NCBI RefSeq assembly: GCF_001570525.1 | Contig: NZ_BBXC01000014.1 | Coordinates: 145,458 to 209,457, forward strand | Length of the DNA: 64,000 nucleotides | Direction: 5' to 3' | Origin: Herbidospora sakaeratensis | Lineage (GTDB): Bacteria; Actinomycetota; Actinomycetes; Streptosporangiales; Streptosporangiaceae | Part shown: in pieces, positions 8,227-49,034 of the stretch | Position numbering within the stretch: position 1 is the first letter of the stretch | Layout: each line of letters starts with the position of its first letter | Program-made: the position numbers and the translations under genes | The notes under the pieces: model-generated | The model's input: only the letters and a program-made list of their open reading frames with translations | Database searches by the model: none | What the model was told of the DNA's origin: nothing

Positions 8227-8363
8227 GGTTGCTCCTCTGTACGCCGATCCCGGGTCGCATCGTCCCACCGGGGGAGCGCTCCGGATACGTACAAATACCT
8301 AAAGCTCGGTCTCCCGGTTGACTTCTCCAAGAAAGTCCGGCTCGCTGTTCACAAGGAGGAGAG

Positions 8364-8429
8364 ATGGTCGATATGGACGGTTTGGCGCTGCGAACCATGA
8401 CGGCCGGGGCCGGTCGTGACTCACGGTGA
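8364..8429 (+). CDS. 21-codon leader ORF with a strong ribosome binding site
   Basis: AAGGAGGAGAG directly precedes this ATG, the best Shine-Dalgarno in the neighbourhood, yet the frame is only 21 codons (begins MVDMDGLALRTM). Its TGA overlaps a GTG at 8426 that opens a 32-codon frame with good codon bias (PTAADNPRQLLGTFELEVG). That frame's TGA at 8522-8524 overlaps the ATG at 8524 of the lipoprotein. It could be a translated leader chain or a decayed small gene with a frameshift. Confidence 0.4.
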   Translation: MVDMDGLALRTMTAGAGRDSR

Positions 8430-8976
8430 TTCCCACGGCCGCGGACAATCCTCGGCAATTGCTGGGCACGTTCGAACTCGAGGTCGGCGCCCTGGTCGGA
8501 TCAATGGGATCGGCCGCCTTGTGATGGTCGTGCTGGTCTCCGCGCCGATCCTCGCGGGATGCGACCACGCCCCTCGTGCGGACCCGGTGGCGCAGACCAC
8601 GACCACGGGATCTCCCGGGGAACTTCTCGGTGCGTGGCAGAGCACCGGCGCGGGCGATGCGCTGCTCATGTACCGCTTCGACGCCGACGGCGGTTACACG
8701 CACACGAGCGTGCTCGTTCGGCAACGCCCTTCGGGACTGTTCAGTCAGGGAGTGCGGGTCTCCGGCAGCGTCGACGTCGACGGGGAGCGGCTGGTGTTGC
8801 GCCCGGAGGACGGCGCCGTGACGCTGACCGACCCCGGCTCGCCCGGCTCCAGCTACACGAATCGGCCGATGACCGACCTGAGCGCCGCGGAATACACGTG
8901 GATGTTGTCGCCCGACGGCGACCTCGGGTTGACGGAGGCCGCGTCGGGGAAGACGGTCACGTACCGGAGATTGTGA
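8416..8976 (+). CDS. Small lipoprotein, unknown
   Basis: The frame contains a lipobox (ILAGC) preceded by a hydrophobic run (VMVVLVSAPILAG) and a beta-rich domain of about 130 residues with GELLGAWQSTGAGDALLMYRF, like other small exported proteins that begin by testing for a change in fluorescence-fold or lipocalin-type barrels. The start is unsure. GTG 8416 gives a long Arg/Gly-rich leader before the signal peptide, while ATG 8524 gives a very short one but overlaps the stop of the upstream small frame (TGATG), as coupled genes do. It is probably anchored on the outer face of the membrane. Function unknown. Confidence 0.65.
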   Translation: MTHGDSHGRGQSSAIAGHVRTRGRRPGRINGIGRLVMVVLVSAPILAGCDHAPRADPVAQTTTTGSPGELLGAWQSTGAGDALLMYRFDADGGYTHTSVLVRQRPSGLFSQGVRVSGSVDVDGERLVLRPEDGAVTLTDPGSPGSSYTNRPMTDLSAAEYTWMLSPDGDLGLTEAASGKTVTYRRL

Positions 8977-9085
8977 CGAGACGGGCCGAGGTCGATCGTG
9001 CCGAACGCGTGGGCGAACCTGGCGCCGCAGAACGTGCTCGGGGTCGTCTCCTGAGTGTTCCGCGCGGGCCCCTACGATTTCGCGC

Positions 9086-35944: not shown

Positions 35945-37099
35945 GTGACGACCGGCCGCGCCACCCTGCGCAGGGACAACCTGTCCCGCGTGCTCCGGCA
36001 CCTGCGCGACCACGGGACCTGCTCCCGCGCGGACGTGGTGGAGGCGACCGGTCTGCACCGCGCCACCGTCTCCTCCCTGATGACCGAGCTCATGTCGCTC
36101 GGCCTGGCGCGGGAGGCGGGCACCTCGGTGACGGGGGCCATCGGGCGGCCACGGCGGGACGTGGCCCTCGACGGCTCCCACGTGGGGGCGCTGGGCCTGG
36201 AGATCAACGTCGACTACGTGGCCGCCCACGGCTCCGACCTGGGCGGCCGCGTGTTGTTCTCCTGCCGCGAGGGCTTCGACGCGGCCGCCGCGGGCCCATC
36301 CGGCTGCCTGACCGAGCTGGTCCGCGTGGCCCGCCGGGCGGCGGGCGAGATGGGCTCCCTGGCGGGCGTCGTGGTGGCCGTGCCCGGACTGGTCGCCGAC
36401 GGCGTGGTCTCCTTCGCGCCGAACCTCGGCTGGCGGCACGTCCCCTTGGCCGACCTGCTCGGCGCGGAACTGGGCGTGCCGGTCGGGGTCGGCAACGACG
36501 CGAACCTGGCGGCCCTGGCCGAATACGCGTGCGGCGTGGCCGCCGGCACCTCCGACATGGTCTACCTGACCGGCGAGGTCGGCGTGGGCGGCGGCATCAT
36601 CATGGACGGCCGGTTGCTCCGCGGCGCCGACGGCTTCTCCGGCGAGACGGGCCACCTGCTCGTCGACCCCGACGGCGCGCGGTGCGGCTGCGGCCGTACC
36701 GGATGCTGGGAGACCAAGGTCGGGCTGGCGGCTCTCGACCCCGCCGGAGCGACCACGACCGGCCCCGACGCGCGGGTCGACTCGATCGCCTCGGCCGCCG
36801 AGGCCGGCGACGCCCGCACCCTCGACGCGCTGGCCGAGGTGGGCCGCTGGCTGGGCCTGGGCGGCTCGATCCTGGTGAACCTCTTCAACCCGCGCGCGAT
36901 CGTGGTCGGCGGCTACTTCGCCCGGCTGGCCGAACGACTGATCCCCCCGGCCCAGGCCGAACTCGAACGCCGGGCCGTGGCCGGAGGGCGGTGCACGATC
37001 ATGGCCTCGCAGCTGGGTTTCGAGGCGGCGGCCCGGGGAGCGGCCGGCACGGTGGTCGACCGCGTCCTCGACGACCCGCTGATCCTGGAATCCGCCTGA
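35945..37099 (+). CDS. ROK-family transcriptional regulator (NagC/XylR-type)
   Basis: The 384-residue protein has an N-terminal winged helix (about 10-65, with CSRADVVEATGLHRATVSSL) and a ROK sugar-binding domain with the zinc motif CGCGRTGCWE and the ATP/sugar-site glycines GVGGGIIMDG. ROK repressors release DNA when they bind a sugar. The GTG start lies one base after the permease stop, so it is the last gene of the fucD operon and probably controls it through the ATCGGAT sites upstream. The conserved ExGH-like segment (GETGHLLVD) is present. Confidence 0.9.
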   Translation: MTTGRATLRRDNLSRVLRHLRDHGTCSRADVVEATGLHRATVSSLMTELMSLGLAREAGTSVTGAIGRPRRDVALDGSHVGALGLEINVDYVAAHGSDLGGRVLFSCREGFDAAAAGPSGCLTELVRVARRAAGEMGSLAGVVVAVPGLVADGVVSFAPNLGWRHVPLADLLGAELGVPVGVGNDANLAALAEYACGVAAGTSDMVYLTGEVGVGGGIIMDGRLLRGADGFSGETGHLLVDPDGARCGCGRTGCWETKVGLAALDPAGATTTGPDARVDSIASAAEAGDARTLDALAEVGRWLGLGGSILVNLFNPRAIVVGGYFARLAERLIPPAQAELERRAVAGGRCTIMASQLGFEAAARGAAGTVVDRVLDDPLILESA

Positions 37100-37124
37100 G
37101 GCGCCACGGCGGTACGCTTCCACC

Positions 37125-37169
37125 GTGATCAGCTCCCCCCTCGCGATCATCGGGACGTCCGCCGTATGA
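37125..37169 (+). other. 15-codon mini-ORF at the left edge of the defence island
   Basis: GTG ATC AGC TCC and so on reads VISSPLAIIGTSAV with strongly host-like codons and stops by overlapping the endonuclease start (ATGA). It looks like the first codons of a host gene cut by insertion of the island, or a leader peptide for the endonuclease. The GTG lies 26 bases after the ROK gene stop. Confidence 0.35.
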
Positions 37170-37933
37170 ACGCCGAATTCGTCACCCAGCTTCTTGGCTG
37201 GAAAACCACCAAGAAGGGCAACACAGTCCCCAACACCGCTGACACCGACAACGCGGCTTCGATGTGCATCGCGGGCGCAGTCCTTGAGGAGATCGGGGTC
37301 ACGTGGGGAACGGTGGCCCCGGTCGAGAAACTCGAGACGGGACGCCCGCTGGAGAGAGCGGTCGCAGCCTCCCTCAAGACCCAGCTTCCACGGCTCGATG
37401 ACTCCCGTGCGTGGACGGTTCACGACGCACCGATAGAGATCACCGCGTTCGTTCAGTACAACCACCTCAAGAAGGTGGACCGCCTGGTTGAACGGAACGT
37501 CGAACTGCAGATCACCCTTGGCCGCGACTACCTCATCAAGCCTGATGTCGTAGTGAGCCTGCCTGGGCGGAAGGGCGACAACCTGCCTTTCCTGCACGCC
37601 GCGGTCTCTTGCAAGTGGACGATCAGATCTGACCGCGTGCAGAACATCCGGCACGAGAACGGCCAGATGATCAGGCATCGCAGGGAGCGGCTCCCCCACC
37701 TGGTCACCGTCACCGCAGAGCCGCTCCCTTCGCGGTTGATCTCCATTGCCCGGGGGACGGGAGAAGTGGACGCGGTCTACCACATCGCCTACGGAGCACT
37801 TGACCAGGTGGTCCGGGACCTCGCCGGGACGGGCAAGATCCAGGCTAAGCAACTCAGTGACTGGGAAGAGTGCATAGCGCTGGGCCGGATCCGTCCCTTT
37901 ACCGACTTGGCGCCCACGCTCGCCTTGTGGTGA
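37166..37933 (+). CDS. Type II restriction endonuclease, NgoMIV family (predicted GCCGGC)
   Basis: This 255-residue protein belongs to the NgoMIV-type PD-(D/E)XK family. Key residues are visible: Glu64 in PLERAV, Asp127 in YLIKPDVVV, Ser148-Cys-Lys150 in AAVSCKWTIRSDR, and Glu164, spaced 14 from the lysine exactly as Lys187 and Glu201 are in NgoMIV. NgoMIV cuts G^CCGGC as a tetramer, and the same site is likely here (inference). It is shorter than NgoMIV by about 30 residues. The cognate methyltransferase lies 5.6 kb away beyond five other genes, not next door. Codon use is less GC-biased than in the flanking operons. Confidence 0.87.
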   Translation: MNAEFVTQLLGWKTTKKGNTVPNTADTDNAASMCIAGAVLEEIGVTWGTVAPVEKLETGRPLERAVAASLKTQLPRLDDSRAWTVHDAPIEITAFVQYNHLKKVDRLVERNVELQITLGRDYLIKPDVVVSLPGRKGDNLPFLHAAVSCKWTIRSDRVQNIRHENGQMIRHRRERLPHLVTVTAEPLPSRLISIARGTGEVDAVYHIAYGALDQVVRDLAGTGKIQAKQLSDWEECIALGRIRPFTDLAPTLALW

Positions 37934-37945
37934 GGAACGTCCGGC

Positions 37946-38644
37946 TCACAGCGTGCCGTCGTCCAGGTGCCCAAGCAGGGTGTCGCGCGCCTCGGAAGGC
38001 AGCCGTCTGTAAGCAGTCCACGCCCGGTCGATCGGCGTGGCCCCCCTCCGACCTCGCTTGATCCACAGCAGTAGGCGCCGCTGCTCAGCCTCGTCGAGAT
38101 CACGTATGTCGCTGAGCAGCCGGGCCAGGTCAGCTGACTGATCGTTTCCGGTACCGGACCGGCATCGCTTGCATTCCGTCACGTACATGAGTTCGGTGCG
38201 GTCATGAGAAAGGCGCACCGTTCTGCTGCTCGCTGCCAGGACCGCGGTCTCAGAGGGGGAGTCGGCGTAGGTCTCTCCGCCGGCGATTCCGCACGTCACA
38301 CACTGGTAGTCGTCGGCTGCGAACACTGCCTGCCGCTGCTTCGCCGTAATTGCCGGGCTCGTCGCCGCACGTTTGACGTCACGTTGCCAGACGGGGACCC
38401 CGGCCTTGACGAAGCGCTGTTCCTGCGGGCGGAGCGTGGCGTCTTCCGTGTTGGTGTGGATGACCCAGTCATAGTCGCGCAGGTCTCGCATGCGGCGATC
38501 GGCCTGGGAAATGCCCGGAAAGGCGTTGCGGTGCTCTTCCTTCGTGAAGACGTTGCCCTCTCCGACTACGGTGACCAGCCACAATGCGGTGCGGACCATC
38601 GTTCCCGCCTTGAGGGTTTCGTCATCCCATCTGGGTACACTCAT
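37946..38644 (-). CDS. HNH-like zinc protein (possible accessory nuclease)
   Basis: In this 232-residue protein the middle (about 100-165) shows the usual entry to an HNH domain, ITAKQRQAVFAADDYQCVTCGIAG. A second cysteine pair follows at TECKRCRSG, giving a CxxC...CxxC zinc site. The central histidines of a canonical HNH are not clear; LSHDR is the only candidate. The N-terminus (VFTKEEHRNAFPGISQADRRMRDLRDYDWVI) resembles the winged-helix part of other restriction-associated proteins. It converges on the endonuclease with a 12-base gap, so the pair probably entered together. Confidence 0.62.
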   Translation of the reverse strand: MSVPRWDDETLKAGTMVRTALWLVTVVGEGNVFTKEEHRNAFPGISQADRRMRDLRDYDWVIHTNTEDATLRPQEQRFVKAGVPVWQRDVKRAATSPAITAKQRQAVFAADDYQCVTCGIAGGETYADSPSETAVLAASSRTVRLSHDRTELMYVTECKRCRSGTGNDQSADLARLLSDIRDLDEAEQRRLLLWIKRGRRGATPIDRAWTAYRRLPSEARDTLLGHLDDGTL

Positions 38645-38753
38645 GGTTACTCCACGCTAGTCTTCGGGCGCATGTTGCATTATGGCCGGAATTGTCGGCG
38701 AGTCCTGGCACGATCTATGCCCAGCGACTGATGACGAGAGGGAGCAGCAGAGA

Positions 38754-40169
38754 ATGGTCACGTACGGGGTTCCCCCGCAGGCCGCCGAGACCCGCGCCAT
38801 GATCGACGAGCGCCTCAGGGAAGCGATCGCGGCGAATGGCGAGAAGATCTCCATCGAATGGCGTGGCCAGCCAAAACACCTCTATGTCATCTCCATGCCC
38901 GTCGGTCTGCTCTACTTCAACCCCGACACCCACCGGATCCGGGCGCAGCGCACGCTCGATCCGGCCCGCGACCGCCTGCTCGACAACGACCCCTGGGGGG
39001 AATCGAGCCAGGATTACCTTGCCAAGCTTCTCCGGTGCCAGCCTGCCGACCCTGACAAGGTTGACCCCGAGTTCGAGTCGCTTCGTGACAGCCTGGAGTC
39101 GTTCGGTCAGAAAGACCCTGGGATCATCACCTACGAGGGCATTCTCGTCAACGGAAACACTCGCTGCGCCGCACTGCGGGACCTGGGAGAAAAATACATC
39201 CGTGTGGGGGTTCTTCCTGACTCCTCTACCTGGGATGACATCAACACCGTCGAGCTGTCGCTCCAGCTCCGCAAGGAATTCAAGCGTGACTACTCCTACA
39301 TCAACCGCCTGATCGCGATCGCTGAGCAGATGAGATCCGGGCGTCGTGTGGAGGATATTGCCCGAGACTTCCATATCAGGACGAAGACCCTAGAACAGGA
39401 TCAATGGGTATACGCCGTCATCCTTGACGCCATCGAACGCAGCAAGACCGCAGCAGGCGCCGCTCTCCGCTTGGTGGACTTCGAAGACCATCAGGAGAAG
39501 CTCAGGGAAATGCACCGGGCCTACAAGCAACTGGCCGGCACAGACAAGGACGCTGCCGAGGCGCTCAAGGAATCCCGCCTGGCGATGGTGGTTCTCAACT
39601 TCGCCAAGACGGATCTGCGCCACGTACAGGGTGACTTCCACGTGAAGTATCTGAACCAGAAGCTTCCCAGCTTCGCCCGGCCCTCGGTCGAGGACTCCAG
39701 CTCCGTCAGCATCCCCGGCCTGCCTGGCGTCGTCGTGCCAGATTCCGCACCCGCGACCAAAGCCGCCCGCACGCTCACCGACCAGGTTCTCAAGGCGCGG
39801 GCGACTGCATCACTGACCGCTCCGGGTGCCGACATCGGTCAGGTGACGCAGGCGAGCCAGGTGATTACGGCGGTGCGGGATTCGTTCGAGGGAGCGCTCA
39901 AGCCAGCCGGACGCGATGGGACCCTCCGGCAAAGACAACTCGCCGCCCCAGACCGGCTGTCCGACGCCTGTGACCTCATTGATCTCTGCATGGGCGATCT
40001 CGCAAAGGCGCGCGCCACCCAGGCGCTCGACCAGCCAGCGTTCGACGACGCTGTTGTCCGGCTGCGTGAGTCTCTAGAGAAACTGGCCAAGCAGGCGTCC
40101 CGGGCTTTCCCCGAACCGGGTGACGGTGTCGCCTGGCTGCTCTCCATCACCGACCCGAACAATGAGTGA
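38754..40169 (+). CDS. ParB/Srx-fold protein of a defence operon
   Basis: The roughly 471-residue protein has a ParB-like N-terminal domain: SLRDSLESFGQKDPGIIT, then ILVNGNTRCAALRDLG (the box that reads DGNRR in relatives), then helices with YINRLIAIAEQMRSGRRVEDIARDF, a helix-turn-helix-like stretch. The C-terminal 200 residues are helical. Some ParB-fold proteins hydrolyse CTP or nick DNA. An ATG at 38682 is also open, but I prefer 38754: GAGGGAG lies upstream, and it leaves promoter room after the divergent HNH-like gene. Its stop overlaps the helicase start. Confidence 0.75.
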   Translation: MVTYGVPPQAAETRAMIDERLREAIAANGEKISIEWRGQPKHLYVISMPVGLLYFNPDTHRIRAQRTLDPARDRLLDNDPWGESSQDYLAKLLRCQPADPDKVDPEFESLRDSLESFGQKDPGIITYEGILVNGNTRCAALRDLGEKYIRVGVLPDSSTWDDINTVELSLQLRKEFKRDYSYINRLIAIAEQMRSGRRVEDIARDFHIRTKTLEQDQWVYAVILDAIERSKTAAGAALRLVDFEDHQEKLREMHRAYKQLAGTDKDAAEALKESRLAMVVLNFAKTDLRHVQGDFHVKYLNQKLPSFARPSVEDSSSVSIPGLPGVVVPDSAPATKAARTLTDQVLKARATASLTAPGADIGQVTQASQVITAVRDSFEGALKPAGRDGTLRQRQLAAPDRLSDACDLIDLCMGDLAKARATQALDQPAFDDAVVRLRESLEKLAKQASRAFPEPGDGVAWLLSITDPNNE

Positions 40170-41985
40170 GGCTGCGCCGAGCCTGGAAATCGTCTTCGGA
40201 GTTTCGGCGACCAAGGCGCAGTTCCGCGCGGGTGCCGGGTTCGAAGACGATCTCCGCCAGCTCATCAGCCGGTTCCGGACGGCCGGTCAGCGGTCGTCGG
40301 TCACCGCCGATATCGACGTCGATGACCTGCTGCTGAACCTTGGCGAGCTGGCCACCTGGCGCGACCCCGCTGGGGTGCGGTGGGATCCCCAGCTGGCGGC
40401 ACTGGCGAGAGACACGGCTCTCGACGCTCAGACTGTTGACGGTCGGCTCCACGGCCGGTCTCCTGACGCTGAGGTGCCCCCTGAGTCCGTCATCGATCGG
40501 CTTGGCACGGGCTGGCTCGGCGACCTCACCGAGTTCCAGCGTCGTGACATTGCCCGGCTCCTGTCACTGCGGCACGGTGCGAACTTCTCGGTTCCTGGCG
40601 CTGGAAAGACACGGGTCGGCTTGGGCGTATTTCACGCTCTCAAGCAGGCCGGTGATGTACGGCGTCTTCTCATCGTGGGGCCCAAGTCGTGCTATGAGTC
40701 CTGGCAGACGGAGAACGCTGGTTGCCTTGCCGAGCCCCTCCGCATGGACGTGCTCGACGGCACGATCAACCCGGGCGCCGAGGCGGTGATCGTCAATTAC
40801 GAGCGGCTGCAGCCTTCCGCCAACTCCCTCGCCCGGTGGCTGAGTGCCCAGCCCTCGATGCTCATCCTCGACGAGGCCCACCGCATGAAGCTGGGTGCCA
40901 ACGGCGCCTACGGGTCTGCCTGCCTCGCACTGGGCCCGAGAGCCCGTAGACGGCTCATACTCACGGGCACCCCGGCGCCGAACGGTGCCAAGGATCTGGA
41001 AAGCCTGTTCTCTTTCGTCTGGCCAGGGCACGGCCGCCAGACGGTGTCGAGAGCGGTGGGCGGTGGGGATCTGGCTCATGCGAGCCGGGTACTCAAACCG
41101 TTGTTCACCCGCACCACCAAGGGGGAACTCGGTCTTCCGCCCGTCACGCTGACCCGCAGGGAGGTCAGCATGCCCTCCCTGCATCAGGAGATCTACGACG
41201 CTCTCCGCGGCTTCCATTCGGCCCGTGCGGCGGTGGCGCAAGACGACTTCCAGGCCATGGGCAAGATCACCATGTACATGCTCATGGCCGCGATCAGTCC
41301 CGCGCTGCTCGCGGTCGGCACAACCCGGTACGAACCGCTCGCCTACCAGGTGCCGCCGCTACAGATCCCCGACGGTTCGCCGCTTCTCGATTTGATGCGG
41401 GATCTGCCGAGCTACGAGCTGTCGCCCAAGTACCGCGAGACGCTTGCCATTGTCGCGGCCAACGCGGCCGCCGGGCGGAAGACGCTCGTGTGGTCTGGTT
41501 TCATCCGCAGCGTGACCACCTTGGAGCAGGTACTCAAGGAGTTCTCTCCCGCGCTCGTCCACGGCGGCACCGACGACCGGGAGGCGCAGATCGCTCGCTT
41601 CCGCAATGATCCGGACTGCATGGTGCTCCTGTCGAATCCGGCGACCCTCGGGGAGGGGATCAGCCTGCACCACGACTGTCATGACGCCGTTTATGTCGAT
41701 CGTGACTTCGCCGCAGGTCGTTTCCTGCAGAGCCTCGACCGCATTCATCGTCTTGGCCTAGCCCCTGGGACGGAGACCAGAATCACCGTACTGACCTGCA
41801 AAGAAACCATCGACGATGTGGTCGCGCAGCGGCTGGAGGCCAAGCTGCAGTTCATGGGCAGAATCCTGGACGATCCATCTGTCCACCAACTTGCCGACCT
41901 CGATGACGAGCCAGCGGTGGGCGGAGGGCTTGATCTCAACGACCTGCGGGCGCTGATGGGTCACCTCCGTGCCGGTTCCTCCTGA
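40162..41985 (+). CDS. SNF2-family helicase/translocase
   Basis: The 607-residue protein has an N-terminal accessory region (1-115) and a complete SF2 core: FQRRDIARLLSL (Q-like), motif I FSVPGAGKTRV (Lys149), motif II LILDEAH (237-240), motif III LTGTPAPNG, then domain 2 with TLVWSGFIRSV, MVLLSNPATLGEGISL (motif V) and SLDRIHRLG (motif VI). This is the arrangement of SNF2-like dsDNA translocases found in DISARM and type III/ISP-type restriction. It lacks nuclease motifs of its own. It overlaps both neighbours, so ParB-like, helicase and DUF3883 proteins are probably made in fixed ratio. Confidence 0.88.
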   Translation: MSEAAPSLEIVFGVSATKAQFRAGAGFEDDLRQLISRFRTAGQRSSVTADIDVDDLLLNLGELATWRDPAGVRWDPQLAALARDTALDAQTVDGRLHGRSPDAEVPPESVIDRLGTGWLGDLTEFQRRDIARLLSLRHGANFSVPGAGKTRVGLGVFHALKQAGDVRRLLIVGPKSCYESWQTENAGCLAEPLRMDVLDGTINPGAEAVIVNYERLQPSANSLARWLSAQPSMLILDEAHRMKLGANGAYGSACLALGPRARRRLILTGTPAPNGAKDLESLFSFVWPGHGRQTVSRAVGGGDLAHASRVLKPLFTRTTKGELGLPPVTLTRREVSMPSLHQEIYDALRGFHSARAAVAQDDFQAMGKITMYMLMAAISPALLAVGTTRYEPLAYQVPPLQIPDGSPLLDLMRDLPSYELSPKYRETLAIVAANAAAGRKTLVWSGFIRSVTTLEQVLKEFSPALVHGGTDDREAQIARFRNDPDCMVLLSNPATLGEGISLHHDCHDAVYVDRDFAAGRFLQSLDRIHRLGLAPGTETRITVLTCKETIDDVVAQRLEAKLQFMGRILDDPSVHQLADLDDEPAVGGGLDLNDLRALMGHLRAGSS

Positions 41986-42814
41986 CCCGGTTCTCCGCGC
42001 GGCATCGCGCTGGCTGCATCACCTCTCCTCCGTCGACGTGATGCACGCCAGCGCGCTTTTCACCACCCACAGCGCCTACGCGGATGTAACGCCGACCCAG
42101 TACTCCACAGCCCTCACGTGGCTCAAGGAGAACGGGTTGGTGACATCCGACGGGAAGACCGGTCGGTCAGCGGGGCCGGCCTCCCTGATGGAAGCCGCGT
42201 TCAAGGACGCCTTGTGGCTCCCGGACGCCGATCTACTCGTCACATGTCCAGAAGAATTGCCCATGGACGTCATCCGGGCTGCTGACGCCATCGGCATCGG
42301 CACAGACGATGCCCTGGCCGTCATCCGGGATGCGTGGGGCAAAGTCGACACCGAGTCGCGGACGCGGGTGGGGAACGCTGGTGAGCTGGCACTGGTCGGC
42401 TTGCTGCGTGCGGCAAGTGACCTGCCAGTACGGCACGTGGCCGAGACGTCAGATGGCTACGGCTATGACATCGCGATCGGCGACGTGCACATCGAGGTGA
42501 AGAGCACGACCCGGCGCGGGCGCCTGACGATCTACCTGTCCCGTTATGAATACGAGACCATGAAGTCGGATCCTGGGTGGATGCTGGCGGTCATCCGCCT
42601 CGGCCCGGATCTCCAGCCGCTGGCGGTCGCCTCCCTCGACCGGCGATGGATCGAGCACGCTGTTCCTGGCGATCGCAGCCATAACGGACGGTGGGAATCC
42701 GTGCGCTTCGACGTCCCAGCGGATGCCGTGACTCCTGGGCTGCCACCGCTCGGCGCCATGCTGACGGAGGCGCAGAGCGGCCTGCTCTCCGGAAAACCGT
42801 CCTGGACCGGATAG
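41969..42814 (+). CDS. DUF3883-type PD-(D/E)XK nuclease-like protein
   Basis: In this 281-residue protein the second half has the DUF3883 pattern: VGNAGELALVGLL (Glu139), GYGYDIAI (Asp167), VHIEVKSTT (Glu176-x-Lys178), then RLTIYLSRYEYETM and WMLAVIRLG. Together these form a plausible PD-(D/E)XK active site. The first 130 residues contain a winged-helix-like stretch, TPTQYSTALTWLKENGLVTSD, probably for DNA recognition. The start is GTG 41969, inside the helicase gene. Beside an SNF2 motor it is a natural candidate for the effector nuclease of the operon. Confidence 0.75.
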   Translation: MPVPPDPVLRAASRWLHHLSSVDVMHASALFTTHSAYADVTPTQYSTALTWLKENGLVTSDGKTGRSAGPASLMEAAFKDALWLPDADLLVTCPEELPMDVIRAADAIGIGTDDALAVIRDAWGKVDTESRTRVGNAGELALVGLLRAASDLPVRHVAETSDGYGYDIAIGDVHIEVKSTTRRGRLTIYLSRYEYETMKSDPGWMLAVIRLGPDLQPLAVASLDRRWIEHAVPGDRSHNGRWESVRFDVPADAVTPGLPPLGAMLTEAQSGLLSGKPSWTG

Positions 42815-42950
42815 CGACAGCGACGCGTGTTCTTGCTGAGACGTTGGATACTCTCCATGGGTGGACGTCGAAGATCATTTCCGACCGTACGCCGCTGTGG
42901 CAGCCGGTGCTGCCGGGATCAGATCGATCTCCGCCAACGCTGGGAAAGTG

Positions 42951-43454
42951 TCAGCCGGAATCGCTATTGTCGCTCGCATGTTCGGGATGGGGCTGGATGG
43001 CCGCGATCACTTCGCCGACCGCGTCGGCCAGGGTCACGTGCTCCCAGAGCCGGACGACACGCCATCCAGCGGAGTGCAGTGCCTCGTTGACCGCCCGGTC
43101 GCGTTCCATGTTGCGGCGCAGTTTCGGGGTCCAGTACCACTCGTTGGTCGTCGGCTGCCTCCCGTGATCAGGACACACGTGCCAGAAACAGCCGTCGACG
43201 AAGACGGCAACCTTCCGGGCGGTGAAGACGATGTCGGGCCGCACCTTCACTCGGCCGAGGTCCAGCCGGAAGTCCTTCCGGTAGCGCAACCCGAGCCCGT
43301 GCAGAGCCTTGCGGAGGACGACCTCCGGTTTGGTGTCCGCCCGCCGGTTGGCTCGCATGTTCCTCGAACGGCCCTCGTTGAGCGGCTGAGGATAGAGCCC
43401 TCGCTCGTGGGCCTGCTCCCTGGCTTGAATTCGCTTCTCTTCAGACACAGCCAT
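42951..43454 (-). CDS. vsr: Very short patch repair endonuclease (Vsr)
   Basis: The 167-residue protein matches Vsr: SRNMRANRRADTKPEVVLRK, RVKVRPDIVFTARK (catalytic Asp74), AVFVDGCFWHVCPDH (the FxxGCFWH signature with His92), and ERDRAVNEALHSAGWRVVRLWEH. It nicks 5' of T in T:G mismatches left by deamination of 5-methylcytosine. It is divergent from the C5 methyltransferase gene, whose mutagenic side effect it repairs, and its specificity should match that enzyme's site. Confidence 0.93.
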   Translation of the reverse strand: MAVSEEKRIQAREQAHERGLYPQPLNEGRSRNMRANRRADTKPEVVLRKALHGLGLRYRKDFRLDLGRVKVRPDIVFTARKVAVFVDGCFWHVCPDHGRQPTTNEWYWTPKLRRNMERDRAVNEALHSAGWRVVRLWEHVTLADAVGEVIAAIQPHPEHASDNSDSG

Positions 43455-43543
43455 TCCGGTGGGATCACAACGCTCGGTTTTGCCCGAGAAGATACCGCCG
43501 CCCAGTCGTCAGTCGTAGTTCCAAGAGTAAGGAAGGGGTCCGC

Positions 43544-44824
43544 GTGACCGGCCAGCAACTACGGGTCATCGAGATCTGCGCCGGGGCAGGCGGCCAGTCC
43601 CTGGGGCTGGAGCGGGCCGGATTCGAGCACGAACTCGCCGTCGAACTCGACCAGAACGCTGTCAACACGCTGCTGCACAACCGTCCTCACTGGAAGGTGG
43701 CGCATGGCGACGTGGCAGACCTGAACGTGTGGAACCCGGCCGACTACGCCCCGGCCGAGGGGCGTCTCCCCATTGATCTGCTTGCGGGTGGTGTTCCCTG
43801 CCCTCCGTTCACGATCGCCGGCAAGCAACTGGGCGCTACCGACGAGCGCGACCTGTTCGCTTGGGCCATCGAGCAGGTAGACGTCCTCAGGCCACGCGCA
43901 CTGTTGCTCGAGAACGTGCGGGGCCTTAGCTTGCCGAGATTCGCCGGCTACCGGCAGCACGTGCTCGATCGCCTGCTGGAGTTCGGTTATGTGGCGGAAT
44001 GGAAGCTGCTGGAGGCCGCGGACTATGGAGTTCCTCAGCTGCGACCGCGGTTCGTGCTCGTCGCCATGGCAGCCCAGGAGTTCGCCTATTTCCACTGGCC
44101 GGAGCCTGCCGGGCAGCCTCCCACTGTTGGTGAGGTGCTTCTTCCCCTGATGGCGGCGAACGGCTGGGAGGGTGCCACGAGCTGGGCGGCGAAAGCTGAC
44201 GACATTGCGCCGACCATCGTTGGCGGCTCCAAGAAGCATGGTGGTGCCGACCTTGGGCCGACACGCGCGAAACGGGCTTGGGCGAAGCTCGGAGTGGACG
44301 CCTTCGGGGTCCACGACACCGCCCCGCCCTACCCTGCTTCCCGTCCCATGACGGAGTATGGCCCGAAGCTCACCTGCGACATGGTGGCGAGAATCCAGGG
44401 GTGGGACGACGATGAATTCCGCTGGAGCTTCACTGGGCGCAAAACCTCCGTCTATCGTCAAATCGGCAATGCATTTCCCCCGCCAGTGGCCAAAGCGATT
44501 GGGGTCTCCATCGCGAGGGCTCTGCGTCACGAAGGTGTGCCCCGAAACGTGGGAAACGATGTCGACCATGATCCGGTTTATCGGGTACTTCAAGGCGCAT
44601 CCAGCTACCTGACGTCAGACCAGATCATCAAGCGTCTGGACGGCCGCGTTGACGTGGCAGAGGTGGAAAAGCGCATAGCCATGCTGGGCCGAGATTTCTT
44701 TATCGAGATGCAAGGCGAGGCAGAAACGGTCGCATACCGTCTGGGGGAGTTCAGGGCATTCCGCGGGCAGGAAGATCACATCCGGCATGACGAGTTCGGC
44801 AAGAACCGGTCGAAGGTCAGTTAG
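43544..44824 (+). CDS. C5 cytosine DNA methyltransferase
   Basis: The 426-residue enzyme has the ordered C5 motifs: I (ICAGAGGQSLGLERAGF), IV with nucleophile Cys86 (GGVPCPPFT), VI (LLENVRG, Glu123), VIII (RPRFVLV), and X (IGNAFPPPVAKAIG). The PCPPFT form instead of PCQPFS is seen in methylases of the GCCGGC group. About 70 C-terminal residues beyond motif X (TSDQIIKRLDGRVDVAEVE) form an extra helical tail. The start is GTG 43544 with AAGGAAGGGG upstream. It should protect the host against the NgoMIV-type endonuclease. Confidence 0.93.
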   Translation: MTGQQLRVIEICAGAGGQSLGLERAGFEHELAVELDQNAVNTLLHNRPHWKVAHGDVADLNVWNPADYAPAEGRLPIDLLAGGVPCPPFTIAGKQLGATDERDLFAWAIEQVDVLRPRALLLENVRGLSLPRFAGYRQHVLDRLLEFGYVAEWKLLEAADYGVPQLRPRFVLVAMAAQEFAYFHWPEPAGQPPTVGEVLLPLMAANGWEGATSWAAKADDIAPTIVGGSKKHGGADLGPTRAKRAWAKLGVDAFGVHDTAPPYPASRPMTEYGPKLTCDMVARIQGWDDDEFRWSFTGRKTSVYRQIGNAFPPPVAKAIGVSIARALRHEGVPRNVGNDVDHDPVYRVLQGASSYLTSDQIIKRLDGRVDVAEVEKRIAMLGRDFFIEMQGEAETVAYRLGEFRAFRGQEDHIRHDEFGKNRSKVS

Positions 44825-45611
44825 CCGAACCTTTCTGAAGACCTGACGCGCGCCGGTGGCCGTCGGGGTGCCCGAGTTGCTCCGCCCGGCGAAAATGCCG
44901 GGCGGCAGAATTTCGGTCGCCCGCGAGTTCGGTCAGGTCGCCCAGTTGATATGCGGCGTCCATGTTGCCGCCGGCCGAGCCCCAGTGGTAGTAAAAGGCA
45001 GCGTCTTCGGCGTAGCCATCAGCTTGCGACTTCCGGCCCAGGTCATAGGCGAGTTTCGCTGCGTTCTGGCCAGGAATGGTGACTGCCTGCCACTGGTGCG
45101 CTGGCGCGTGGAGATTGAACCAGTAGTCGCCGAGGGCCTTCTCGTCTGCCAGGACTAGCAGGGCGGCCAGGGCGGTCACGGCCCCCTCGTCCCGCTCGTG
45201 GGCTCGATGAATCAGATGCATGGCAGACCGGCCGAGAATTTCGACCGTGCGGAGATGCCGCTGGTTCGTGCGGTCGAAGTTGTGGTTACGGTGAGCGGCC
45301 ACAACCGAACTAGCGAATTCCGCTGCTCGGTTGTAAGCGTCAACGGAGGGAGCACATCCGCCATCCTTCAGGGTGCTGATGGTCAGGTGCAGAAGCAGCA
45401 GTTTCTTGACGTTGGGCTTCAGGATCGCCGGGCCATAGCACATCTTGCTCAACGTTGAAGGAGAGAGCGTGTGGCGGGCCAGTGATTCATCGATATGCGC
45501 ATAGGCATGGGCGACCTCTGCGGATGCCTCGCAAATGACTTTCTGTGAATAGCTGCTGCTGGTGACGAGACTTGCTGAGAACTGTTTCCAGTCAGGTGAC
45601 CTCTGGTACAT
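44817..45611 (-). CDS. Sel1/TPR-like protein at the right edge of the island
   Basis: This roughly 264-residue protein is helical throughout. The end shows Sel1-type repeats (AAFYYHWGSAGGNMDAAYQLGD, then AARHFRRAEQLGHPDGHRRA). ATG 45611 is chosen because GGAG lies six bases upstream and the frame before it loses coding character; the frame stays open to 45905. It overlaps the methyltransferase tail to tail by eight bases. Sel1 proteins mediate protein contacts. A role in the defence island is possible but unproven. Confidence 0.6.
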   Translation of the reverse strand: MYQRSPDWKQFSASLVTSSSYSQKVICEASAEVAHAYAHIDESLARHTLSPSTLSKMCYGPAILKPNVKKLLLLHLTISTLKDGGCAPSVDAYNRAAEFASSVVAAHRNHNFDRTNQRHLRTVEILGRSAMHLIHRAHERDEGAVTALAALLVLADEKALGDYWFNLHAPAHQWQAVTIPGQNAAKLAYDLGRKSQADGYAEDAAFYYHWGSAGGNMDAAYQLGDLTELAGDRNSAARHFRRAEQLGHPDGHRRASGLQKGSAN

Positions 45612-45911
45612 CTTGCTCCGCTGGACGTCTCTGTGTGGATTTGGGTGCTGGCCTACTCTCCCAGTCGTTGCCTTTTTTGGCAAGGCGAAGCGTGCTATAT
45701 GCCCGTGTAGCGTTTCCCTGCCTGTTTGAAGCTCCGGCCACCAGAATGTCCAGTTGTGAATTGCGTGAATTTCTAGGGGGACCGGCGCATCGGGTCGTCG
45801 GAAACTTTGGCGGCGTGCCGACCATGTTGTTCTTTTCGGCTCCTCGGGTGATATTGTGGGCGCTCGGCTGTCGTCGGTGATAGAAATCAAAGATTGATCG
45901 CACATCCCAGG
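45612..45911. other. Lower-GC boundary between the island and fumC
   Basis: I see no convincing gene. The stretch has runs such as GCCTTTTTTGGC (near 45669) and A/T-rich codons in every frame, unlike the host genes on its right. It probably holds the promoter of the Sel1-like gene and the terminator of fumC. No tRNA, integrase or clear attachment repeat is visible. Confidence 0.5.
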
Positions 45912-47324
45912 TCACCCGCCGTCGGCCGTGCCGGGTTTGGTCAGCCGTTCCGGGACGACCACCCGGTCGAACAGCGCCTCGTCGACGCCCGACCGCATCG
46001 CCGCCTCCTTCAGCGTCAGGTCCTCGTCGAGGGCCCGGTGGGCGATCTGGGCCGCCCGGTCGTAGCCGATCACCGGGCTCAGCGCCGTAACCATCATGAT
46101 CGAACGCTCCACGTTCTCCGTCAGCCTCTCCGTGTCGAGGCGGGCGTCGGCGACCAGGAACTTGCGGAAGTGGTCGGTCATGTCGGTCAGGATGCGGGCC
46201 GAGTGGAGCACGTTGTTGATGATCAGCGGGCGGAACGCGTTGAGCTCGAAGTTGCCCTCGGCGCCGGCCGCCGAGACCGCCGTGTCGTCGGCCATGACCT
46301 GGATGCAGACCATCAGCATCGCCTCGGCCTGGGTCGGGTTGACCTTGCCCGGCATGATCGAGGAGCCGGGCTCGTTCGAGGGCAGGATCAGCTCGTGGAG
46401 GCCGCTGCGCGGGCCCGAGCCGAGCCAGCGCATGTCGTTGGCGAACTTGAACAGCGGCACGGCCAGCGCCCTGATCGCCGCCGAGACCCGCACCAGCGTG
46501 TCGCACGACGCCTGGGCGGCGAACGGGTTGGCCGCGTCGGTGAAGGGGTGGCCGGTCAGCCGGGCGATCTCGGCGGCGACCTCCTCGGCGAAGCCGGGCG
46601 GCGCGTTCAGGCCGGTGCCGACGGCGGTGCCGCCGATGGCCAGCTGGTAGAGGCCCTGCGCGGTGGCGGTCAGGTGGGCGGCGGCGTCGTCCAGCTGGGC
46701 GGCGTAGCCCGACCACTCCTGGCCGACCGTCAGCGGGGTGGCGTCCTCCAGGTGGGTGCGGCCGATCTTGACCACGTCGGCCCACTGGCGGCTCTTCTCG
46801 GCGGCGGCGTCGCGCAGGCGGCGAACCGCCGGGAGCAGGCCGCCCTCGACCGCCTCCACGGCGGCCAGGTGCATCGCCGTGACGAAGGTGTCGTTGGACG
46901 ACTGGCCCATGTTGACGTGGTCGTTCGGATGGATCGGGTCCTTGGCGCCCAGCCGGCCGCCGAGGAGCTGGATCGCCCGGTTGGAGATCACCTCGTTGAC
47001 GTTCATGTTCGACTGGGTGCCGGAGCCGGTCTGCCAGACGTACAGGGGGAACTCGTCGTCGAGTCTCCCGGCGATCACCTCGTCGGCGACCTCATCGATG
47101 GCGTCGGCCTTCCACTGCGGCAGCCGCCCCGCGCGGGCGTTGACGATCGCGGCGGCCTTCTTGACGTAGCCGTAGGCGTGGTAGACGGCCTTCGGCATGC
47201 GGTCGTCGCCGATGTCGAAGTGGATCAGCGACCGCTGCGTCTGCGCGCCCCAGAGCCGGTCGGCCGGCACCTGGATCTCGCCGAGCGAGTCGCTCTCCGT
47301 CCGGGTCTCCTTGTACGTCGTCAT
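45912..47324 (-). CDS. fumC: Class II fumarate hydratase
   Basis: The 470-residue protein has the superfamily signature SSIMPGKVNP (GSSxMPxKxN) with the mobile catalytic loop. Other family landmarks are GSGTQSNMNVNEV, GQSSNDTF and the histidine in KIGRTHLEDATPL. It interconverts fumarate and L-malate as a tetramer in the cytoplasm. Its start overlaps the stop of the malic-enzyme gene (TGATG), so the two malate-using enzymes are made together. Confidence 0.97.
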   Translation of the reverse strand: MTTYKETRTESDSLGEIQVPADRLWGAQTQRSLIHFDIGDDRMPKAVYHAYGYVKKAAAIVNARAGRLPQWKADAIDEVADEVIAGRLDDEFPLYVWQTGSGTQSNMNVNEVISNRAIQLLGGRLGAKDPIHPNDHVNMGQSSNDTFVTAMHLAAVEAVEGGLLPAVRRLRDAAAEKSRQWADVVKIGRTHLEDATPLTVGQEWSGYAAQLDDAAAHLTATAQGLYQLAIGGTAVGTGLNAPPGFAEEVAAEIARLTGHPFTDAANPFAAQASCDTLVRVSAAIRALAVPLFKFANDMRWLGSGPRSGLHELILPSNEPGSSIMPGKVNPTQAEAMLMVCIQVMADDTAVSAAGAEGNFELNAFRPLIINNVLHSARILTDMTDHFRKFLVADARLDTERLTENVERSIMMVTALSPVIGYDRAAQIAHRALDEDLTLKEAAMRSGVDEALFDRVVVPERLTKPGTADGG

Positions 47325-49034
47325 CACCGCTCCCTCGCCCGGACCGGCCGGTAACGCGGGTGCCACATGGCGTCCTGGACCTGCTGGACGGGGTCGCGCA
47401 GCGTCGTGCGGGCCAGCTGCTCCCGGTCGGCCTGCCGCGCGACGGCGACCGCGACCGTGGCGGAGATCTCACGCAGGTTGTCGACCTGCGGCAGCAGCGA
47501 CGCCCCCGGCAGGGTCGGGTCGACCAGCCCGGCCACGGCCTCGGCGGCGGCCTGGAGCATGCCCCGGCTGACCCGCCGGGCCCGCGAGACGATCACGCCG
47601 AGCCCGAGGCCCGGGTAGAGCAGCGCGTTGTTGGCCTGGCCGATCACGAACGTGATGCCGTTGTGGGTGATCGGGTCGATCGGCACGCCGGTCGCGACCA
47701 GGGCCCGGCCGTCGGTCCAGCGGATCAGGTCGGCCGGCGTCGCCTCGATGCGCTCGGTCGGGTTGGAGATCGGGAAGACGATCGGCCGCTCGACGTTCGA
47801 GGCCATCGTCCGGACGATCTTCTCGGTGAACGCGCCGTGCGCGGTGGACGTGCCGAGCAGCATCGTCGGCTTCACCCGGGCCACCACCTCCGCCAGCCCG
47901 CCGCCCTCGCCGGCCGGGCGGGCGTAGGGGACCTGGAAGTCCCGCAGGCCGGACATGTCGTCGGTGAGCAGGCCCTGCTTGTCGATCGGCCAGATCCGGC
48001 GGGTGGCCTCCTCGTGGTCGAGGCCGTCGCGCACCATCGCGTCGCGCAGCTGGTCGGCGATGCCGATCCCGGCGGTGCCCGCGCCGAAGACGACGATCCG
48101 CTGGTCGCGCATGGGCAGGCCCGACACCTTCACCGCGCTCAGCATGGCGGCCAGCACGATCGCGCCGGTGCCCTGCATGTCGTCGTTGAAGGTGGCGATC
48201 CGGTCGGTGTACCTCTCCAGGATGCGCCGGGCGTTGGACGGCCCGAAGTCCTCCCAGTGCAGCATCGCGCCGGGGAACATCCGGGTCGCCGCCGTCACGT
48301 AGGCGTCGATGAAGTCGTCGTAGCGCTGCCCGCGCACCCGGGAGTGCCGGTCGCCCACGTAGGCGGGGTCGTTGAGCAGCCCCTCGTTGTCGGTGCCGAC
48401 GTCGAGCGCCACCGGGATGACGCGGTCGGGGTCGATGCCCGCCGCCGCCGTGTAGACGGCCAGCTTCCCGGCCGCGATGCCCGCGCCGCCGCCCACGCCC
48501 CAGTCGCCGATGCCGAGGATCTCCTCGGCGTCGGAGGCGACGATCAGGTCGACGTCGTCGGGGCCCAGCCCGAGGTTGCCGAAGGCGCGCTCGATCCTGC
48601 CGGGGTCGTCGACCGACAGGTACACCCCGCGGGGCCGCCGGTATTCGTGGCTGTACGTCTCGATCGCCCGCGCGACCGTCGGGTCGTAGACGATGGGCAG
48701 CATCTCGCGCAGGTGGTCGCCGAGCAGCCGGTAGTAGAGCGTCTCGTTCCGGTCGCGCAGCCCTTCGAGGTAGACGTTCTTGAGCAGGTCGGTCGGCTGC
48801 GCGCGGTATTGCGCGTACACGCGCGTGACCTGCTGGTCGAGCGACTCGACCACCGGCGGCAGCAGGCCGTCGAGCAGCAGTTCGCCGCGCTCCTCCGCCG
48901 TGAACGCCGTCCCCTTGTTCAGCAGCGGTTCGCGCAGCAGCTCGAGGCCACGCAGGGACGTCGCGTAGGAGCCGTCGTCCTGCTCGGAGAACGCCCGGCG
49001 GGCCGCGTCCGGCTTCCTGTTCCCAGGTGACATC
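47324..49034 (-). CDS. NAD-dependent malic enzyme
   Basis: The roughly 569-residue enzyme has the long SfcA/MaeA type pattern: RGLELLREPLLNKGTAFT, NETLYYRLL, the tyrosine region PIVYDPTV, YSHEYRRPRGVYLS, metal-binding residues in HWEDFGPSNA and TFNDDMQGTGA, and the nucleotide fold VVFGAGTAGIGIA. It oxidatively decarboxylates malate to pyruvate. ATG 49034 or 49043 can start it; GGGGG sits at a useful distance only from 49034. It is co-transcribed with fumC. Confidence 0.95.

Follow-up and report, generated by a model that had tools for sequence, protein, structure and literature searches.

A ParB-like and SNF2 gene module linked to a C5 methyltransferase in Herbidospora sakaeratensis, a candidate methylation-coupled restriction system

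The core of DISARM consists of DrmA, DrmB and DrmC; Druantia type II has the methylase DruM2 with other Dru genes; and Dpd has the TGT-like protein DpdA with DpdB and DpdE. ParB-type clamps have known roles in segregating chromosomes and plasmids. Here we describe an island in Herbidospora sakaeratensis (contig NZ_BBXC01000014.1, positions 145,458 to 209,457, a stretch of 64,000 nucleotides that we call the window) in which a ParB-like protein (C) is encoded directly beside an SNF2-type ATPase (D), in company with a four-cysteine, HNH-like protein (B), a DUF3883 nuclease (E), a Vsr endonuclease (F) and a C5 cytosine methyltransferase (G); genes A and H complete the set. From sequence comparison, we judge it moderately probable that B, C, D and E make up a restriction module driven by nucleoside triphosphates (NTPs) and coupled to methylation, for which G and F would be the self-marking arm.

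The nearest worked-out precedent is the CglI/NgoAVII type of restriction-modification (R-M) system. As described in the available part of PMC4267653, these systems have, like the module, a C5 methylase and separate, cooperating ATPase and nuclease subunits; they hydrolyse NTPs extensively and act on a GC-rich target, with a GCSGC methylase. They differ in using a DEAD-type helicase with a Z1 domain and a PLD nuclease with a B3-like domain, and neither a ParB clamp nor a pseudo-HNH reader appears in that part of the source. Membership of this type was rejected, as Pfam at E <= 1 found no Z1, PLD or B3 domain in the eight island proteins. The MORC/paraMORC operons also resemble the module, with SF2/SNF2 motors, a C5 methylase, Vsr and HNH or restriction endonuclease (REase) genes (PMC2292703, available part). 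The eight island proteins, however, include no GHKL or Z1 protein, the absence of any HATPase match at E <= 1 led us to reject this class too, and ParB goes unmentioned in the accessible text of that survey. Accessible parts of a HEPN survey (PMC3710099) name DUF3883 as a novel REase domain fused to SNF2 helicases in R-M operons and describe a HEPN family whose operon also encodes a ParB nuclease and a DNA methylase, but there the parts are spread over families, with neither a ParB-SNF2-DUF3883 set nor a pseudo-HNH gene. The RR-like/paraMORC survey, as far as its text is available, counts ParBc with the R-M domains encoded close to its genes, and the corresponding part of a polyvalent-protein survey names ParB, SNF2 and methylase among the domains of phage and plasmid proteins. 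Parts of the gene combination are already in print in these partial texts (an SNF2-DUF3883 fusion; SNF2 with HNH, methylase and Vsr), and a term search of the available portions of the HEPN, MORC, RR-like/paraMORC, BREX, Dnd, polyvalent-protein and defence-domain surveys found no description of the island set.

The eight proteins were scanned against PADLOC 2023 at E <= 0.1, Pfam at E <= 1 and NCBIfam. An earlier note on this DNA had known of no named system with the gene set, and none emerged from PADLOC 2023, Pfam, NCBIfam or the open-licence papers searched, preprints lying outside the search. DISARM is like the island in bringing an SNF2-type helicase and a C5 methylase together; membership was rejected, since in PADLOC the island has no DrmB or DrmC, and its matches to DrmA (0.0016) and DrmD (3e-11) are partial matches of the SNF2 domain, NCBIfam DrmD scoring 38 bits for a cut-off of 610. 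Druantia type II was rejected, G matching the DruM2 model (8e-200) and the other seven proteins matching no other Dru model, as was Dpd, for which there were partial SNF2 matches to DpdE (3e-12) alone and no DpdA or DpdB. The island does contain the two genes of a type II R-M system, an NgoMIV-type endonuclease and a C5 methylase, which would presumably share a target. It resembles NaeI/NgoMIV systems in the target-recognition core of its methylase and in having NgoMIV, but differs in that the module is found without either enzyme and most NaeI and NgoMIV places in the family have no module.

A profile search with SNF2 only across 84,980 species genomes returned at least 514 relatives, so the family is common, and the 80 closest of these 514 were used for counts. 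By title, 78 of these loci belong to actinomycetes, one to Corallococcus and one to a Planctomycetota metagenome-assembled genome, and the rates hold for that range. Counts come from profile searches over stop-to-stop open reading frames (ORFs), with presence defined as within 9 kb; loci L001-L021 were left out, as they come from the genome of the window itself or are shorter versions of places already included. The ParB-like gene adjoins the SNF2 gene in 80/80 loci, which argues that the gene set is not due to chance. B was likewise found in all 80, a C5 methylase in 76, Vsr in 72 (methylase and Vsr together in 72), DUF3883 in 44, NaeI in 20 and NgoMIV in 5, with NaeI and NgoMIV both absent from 55. 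The earlier note had suggested that the ParB-like, SNF2 and DUF3883 genes may be a separate anti-phage module; that operon does recur, but since B is as constant as the ParB-like and SNF2 genes the conserved unit is larger than this triplet, and DUF3883 is an optional member. The rarity of NgoMIV marks it as an optional add-on. Because the conserved core carries its own methylase and Vsr, the island is not a single type II system interrupted by other genes, as had been supposed.

Of the 63 loci whose flanks extend 7 kb or more in each direction, 62 have the methylase, 60 Vsr, 36 DUF3883 and 20 NaeI or NgoMIV, while 18, here called minimal loci, have neither DUF3883 nor NaeI/NgoMIV. The suggested association of the triplet with C5 methyltransferases is borne out by these figures, the single exception having its methylase elsewhere in the genome; three of the four SNF2-found loci without G end less than 3 kb downstream. 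In the window's family, 30 of 250 genomes have the ParB-like gene (one being the window's own), and 28 loci remain when L048, at a contig end, is also left out. SNF2 lies beside the ParB-like gene in all 28, with B in 18, DUF3883 in 18, C5 methylase in 22, Vsr in 22, NaeI in 7 and NgoMIV in 3. In five of the six family loci without a C5 methylase, a methylase of another type adjoins the module (Eco57I-type in L054, with relatives in L056 and L057; DUF1156/N4-N6-like in L049, with a relative in L050), and all 28 have a methylase of one of three chemistries, 27 in cis and 1 in trans. Most places in these 250 genomes where NaeI occurs (29/36), and most genomes with NgoMIV (15/19), have no module beside the enzyme. 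The trees of B, C, D and E agree closely, that of the methylase less so and that of Vsr least (Spearman correlations of tree distances: C-D 0.94, D-E 0.94, B-C 0.79, D-G 0.68, D-F 0.40).

Gene C (38754..40169, plus strand; longest ORF from 38682) encodes a predicted NTP-binding-type N-domain, a helix-turn-helix (HTH) and a long coiled coil. Scans of it with Pfam, NCBIfam and PADLOC gave no match to a ParB model; a profile of its family finds Spo0J/ParB (1vz0) at an E value of 1e-4, and all ten Foldseek matches of its predicted model (predicted local distance difference test, pLDDT, 93.4; covering 38760-40166) to the Protein Data Bank at E <= 0.001 are KorB, ParB or Noc (best E 2e-4, prob 1.00), several of them nucleotide-bound by title. 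A GN[TR]R-type motif is present in 116/116 sequences. By predicted fold, profile and motif, C thus combines the ParB-type nucleotide domain and HTH that characterise ParB, KorB and Noc, and a 61-residue helix in the model suggests dimerisation. The SNF2-type ATPase/translocase D (40162..41985, plus strand; longest ORF from 40120; PF00176, 2e-15) has intact ATPase motifs, GAGKT in 114/116 and DEAH in 115/116 sequences. E (41969..42814, plus strand) has what looks by eye like a winged helix-turn-helix (wHTH) N-terminus followed by a DUF3883/NOV_C nuclease domain of the PD-(D/E)XK class (PF13020, 5e-7); E139, D162, D167, E176 and K178 are invariant in 24 aligned sequences, so that E appears to keep its active site and to be an intact nuclease. 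C and D overlap by 8 nt and D and E by 17 nt, and from these overlaps the three are probably translated together. At six loci (L060, L064, L067, L068, L070, L071) a protein of ~540-750 residues is encoded downstream of DUF3883, which by eye looks DUF262/GmrSD-like.

B (37946..38644, minus strand), the proposed reader subunit, matched no family in the window scans (Pfam, NCBIfam, PADLOC). Its AlphaFold2 model (pLDDT 91.7) consists of a winged helix followed by a four-Cys domain. The winged helix carries an invariant QxDRRxRxLR...W motif, and Q47, D49, R50, R51, R53, L55, R56 and W60 together with the four Cys are invariant in 54 B sequences. At the position of the HNH His, however, B has Arg or another residue: of the 99 B proteins, 96 lack a [DHE]H pair in the catalytic segment, 29 have a His somewhere in that segment, and L115, among the three that do have the pair, is the paralogue copy. 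B therefore lacks the catalytic His of an HNH endonuclease. Paralogues with the same winged helix (L109, L115, L118, L069) keep GH...N..C..C, and Pfam HNH models match them, though only the L069 copy passes the cut-off. Since the catalytic His is lost in B and kept in the paralogues, the most fitting reading of B is a protein descended from a restriction enzyme, with binding retained and cutting lost. Alignment of the B profile to the IscB HNH is weak and non-significant (E 0.35), and some viral HNH proteins rank high against the B fold at E above 0.1. Homology of B to c9, the gene at the head of the alphaproteobacterial operons described below, was rejected (probability 0.3%), and co-variation of B with the methylase is weak (partial correlation 0.30 when D is controlled for, vs 0.23 for C) and is not taken as proof that B recognises the site. 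At four loci two C5 methylases, whose target-recognition cores differ slightly, have a B paralogue between them (L108:12638-13417, L109:12707-13438, L115:11997-12707, L118:12590-13384); the HNH is intact in three of the four, the L108 copy having no His, and such an arrangement is likely to be an undescribed HNH-type R-M pair.

The methylase G (43544..44824, plus strand; PF00145, 2e-56) is of the NaeI/NgoMIV-associated type. A target-recognition core, GGS[KRE][KR]HGG[AP]DLG[PT][TS]RA[KR], is common to B-containing loci with NaeI, with NgoMIV or with neither. Over all loci it occurs in 34/34 methylases accompanied by NaeI/NgoMIV, 34/41 with DUF3883 only and 25/27 with neither; of the nine without it, eight are other C5 families in loci without B (L024-L026, L028, L051-L053, L055) and one is cut by a contig end (L094). 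We take NaeI and NgoMIV to be isoschizomers that both cut GCCGGC, and the shared core then makes GCCGGC the likely site of G. C5 methylases are sparse, any C5 match being found in 39/61 family genomes, and G is the one PF00145 methylase of the 8.6-Mb window genome. When the 18 minimal-locus genomes were searched, NgoMIV was found in none and NaeI in one (Crossiella, L121). The NgoMIV search itself works, as it gave matches in 19/250 family genomes, window included, and the remaining 17 therefore keep the module and methylase without these enzymes. L121 and L043 have no methylase beside the module, and both genomes hold NaeI and a same-core methylase elsewhere, so that for these two full-flank loci the mark would be provided in trans. 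Beside the L043 module (7684-9039) lies an AspBHI/Mrr-type endonuclease, an enzyme type that is 5-methylcytosine (5mC)-dependent. NaeI- and NgoMIV-type genes stand ~5 kb apart or less at G076:C1:3927986-3929722, G159:C22:32799-34542 and G214:C65:168808-173233, where the ParB-like search detected no module. The accompanying Vsr gene F (42951..43454, minus strand; Pfam Vsr 2e-22, TIGR00632 1e-48) has a GC[FY]WH-type motif that is present in all rows listed (37 of 98), minimal loci included.

Beyond these loci, ParB-SNF2 pairs were found on plasmids and viral contigs and in Actinomycetota, Alphaproteobacteria and Bacillota. Four of five alphaproteobacterial plasmid loci have an REase_II-like gene at the head and DUF3883 after the pair; L024-L026 also have a C5 methylase, and two of them, L025 and L026, a Vsr gene. 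In Bacillota, dcm accompanies the pair in L028, L170 and L171, and a Sau3AI/MutH-like enzyme in L028 and L171. Plasmids of Enterococcus and Lactococcus (L168:624-8569, L169:444-8458) carry Type III Mod, Res, ParB and SNF2 genes as a run of four, the pair coming directly after Res, and the last three genes overlap. The 23 viral-contig loci, which include near-duplicates or parts of one contig (L139/L148, L141/L142), include 17 in which the gene immediately upstream of SNF2 is the ParB-like one; of all 23, 9 have a C5 methylase and 4 Mod-Res. Its occurrence beside C5, Type III and N6 systems indicates that the pair travels with several kinds of methylase. In the L. plantarum locus the SNF2 protein (L028:5512-8100) has an N-terminal PLD-like domain with a PbeA match over ~220 residues. 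PbeABCD was considered after this match and rejected, ParB being absent from the available part of its description (PMC6459918); according to that text Dnd-PbeABCD is, like the module, a modification-dependent, multi-gene system with a helicase, and it stops virus without visible cleavage of viral DNA, but it has no C5 methylase, and the resemblance lies in the PLD part of the L. plantarum protein. Z1-domain and/or GHKL (MORC-like) cluster genes lie near the module's C5 methylase-Vsr pair in L088, L090, L091, L098, L105, L110, L111 and L131 (one member per cluster scanned), as if two motor modules had one methylase between them.

From the gene set, linkage, motifs and ParB-type fold, all drawn from sequence comparison, we infer a target site, an order of events and an anti-phage function. 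G would methylate the host's sites, probably GCCGGC, and Vsr would repair the T:G mismatches left by 5mC. B, as an HNH restriction-enzyme derivative without the catalytic His, would bind an unmethylated site without cutting and load the ParB-like clamp C, which may then spread from the site in an NTP-dependent manner. The SNF2 motor D would be recruited to translocate on or remodel the foreign DNA, and nuclease E, where present, would cut it. At loci without E, clamp and motor might instead block replication or transcription, or pass the DNA to NaeI, NgoMIV or Vsr; NgoMIV in the window's island would be a second, independent effector using the same mark. In either form the module would probably attack or block foreign DNA without the methyl mark. 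We put forward more tentatively, as a possibility that we doubt rather than favour, that a ParB-type clamp and an SNF2 motor constitute a portable restriction engine for almost any methylase (C5, Type III Mod or N6), in which the reader of the unmodified site is swappable (here a dead HNH enzyme) and clamp spreading, rather than cutting at the site, condemns the whole molecule; this would be modification-dependent defence of a new class. Were a ParB clamp to work together with an SNF2 motor under the control of a methylation mark, the chemistry of segregation clamps would be linked to immunity. The module could also explain GCCGGC-type methylase-Vsr pairs without a recognisable endonuclease in streptomycetes, and such barriers may limit gene transfer into actinomycetes.

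Several observations weigh against a methylation-coupled restriction module. The ParB matches of C are local, with query-normalised template-modelling scores of 0.14-0.28, and the B fold has no match at E <= 0.001 among solved and viral structures. The target, probably GCCGGC, is deduced from the NaeI/NgoMIV link and the specificities of these enzymes. G010, a draft genome with B and C at a contig end, has no PF00145 match, and no C5 methylase lies in the stretch read of plasmid loci L022, L023, L027 and L172. Apart from Vsr, no clear nuclease is encoded at the 18 minimal loci. Of the 23 viral-contig loci, 5 show no ParB-like gene, and in 10 the queries used detected no C5 methylase and no Mod-Res. 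In the Type III loci of Enterococcus and Lactococcus, the Mod-Res pair ahead of ParB-SNF2 already has a motor and a nuclease, an arrangement that fits an accessory role equally well.

Such a role is the substance of an alternative that we consider rather unlikely, yet the best of those remaining: the ParB-SNF2 pair would be a general helper of type II and III R-M, concentrating or clearing restriction enzymes on foreign DNA or widening their action after a first cut. The gene order Mod-Res-ParB-SNF2 on the Enterococcus and Lactococcus plasmids and on four viral contigs agrees with it, as do the REase_II-like gene heading the alphaproteobacterial operons and the Sau3AI/MutH-like enzymes of the Priestia and L. 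plantarum loci. The minimal loci speak against it, 18 of the 63 full-flank loci doing without NaeI/NgoMIV and E, and 17 of these 18 genomes having no NaeI or NgoMIV that we could find, although an unrecognised endonuclease is possible. A pure helper role for NaeI/NgoMIV is accordingly unlikely, while the Type III loci leave room for a broader one.

We assign a smaller probability to a safety or maintenance function, by which the module would lower R-M self-damage through restriction alleviation, removal of stuck enzymes, or help with methylation or Vsr repair. The constant company of C5 methylase and Vsr would be expected on this account. In Caulobacter, according to the available part of PMC12907096, a Vsr-like protein harms cells and elicits a DNA damage response once the YGCCGGCR methylase is removed, which suggests that such genes may need control. 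Yet effectors are what the intact, often overlapping nuclease gene E and the pseudo-enzyme reader resemble, the module and Vsr are exchanged freely with respect to each other, and most NaeI places (29/36) and NgoMIV genomes (15/19) in the family manage without a module alongside.

A partition-like or stability function for mobile elements, exerted through the ParB-type clamp, seems to us very improbable. The fold of C, the many copies on plasmids and viral contigs, and ParA-family genes in the stretch read of plasmid loci L023, L169 and L170 are in its favour, but the clamp is partnered by an SNF2 motor, contigs of chromosome size hold many copies next to methylases, and inspection by eye revealed no recurrent cluster of ParA neighbours, the ParA family not having been specifically searched. 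That unrelated genes came together by chance in a hotspot for defence genes, an idea to which the different cargo at this site in congeners lends some colour, has next to no probability given the same core in 80/80 loci, which contradicts it for B, C, D and G, though it could still hold for A and H.

The whole island (37088..45939) is flanked on one side by the ROK gene (35945-37099) and on the other by fumC (45912-47366, minus strand); the earlier note had placed eight genes there, and all eight ORFs were found. Gene starts were chosen to agree with relatives and the ORFs of other loci were called by a GC-frame heuristic, so start codons and small genes are approximate. GC content in 1-kb windows is 60-67% in the island and 65-76% outside. 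The ROK-fumC site was compared in six congeners with the flanks as query: two have an empty site, with gaps of 13 nt (G149) and 11 nt (G109), and the others carry different cargo of 4.8 kb (G083), 4.5 kb (G130), 3.9 kb (G163) and 22.9 kb (G033). The site is thus variable and the island an insertion. The G033 gap (G033:C35:90800-115300; L164, L165) holds a DISARM-like island at the same site, with matches to DrmA (1e-248) and DrmB (3e-70), two C5 methylases, a Vsr-like gene and UvrD-like helicases; the remaining DISARM genes were not individually searched. At the island's ends lie A (37166..37933, plus strand), the optional NgoMIV-type restriction endonuclease (PF09015, 5e-47; 5/80 related loci), and H (44817..45905, minus strand), with weak Sel1/TPR-like repeats and perhaps a regulator. 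Most of the identities first proposed stand, A, D, E, F and G by a Pfam scan of the eight proteins, the ParB-like protein by fold and profile and the HNH relative by its paralogues. The Sel1-like label of H is weak, however: like B it matched no family in Pfam, NCBIfam or PADLOC, and one relative (L033) gave a sub-threshold Sel1 match (E 0.023). BLAST matches to H fall in two clusters of six loci each among the 116 clustered loci. A Sel1-like gene also occurs near the module at L032 (relatives L033, L034, L035), together with a HYD1-type ADP-ribosyltransferase-like protein (L032:5405-5857; PF15633, 1e-22).

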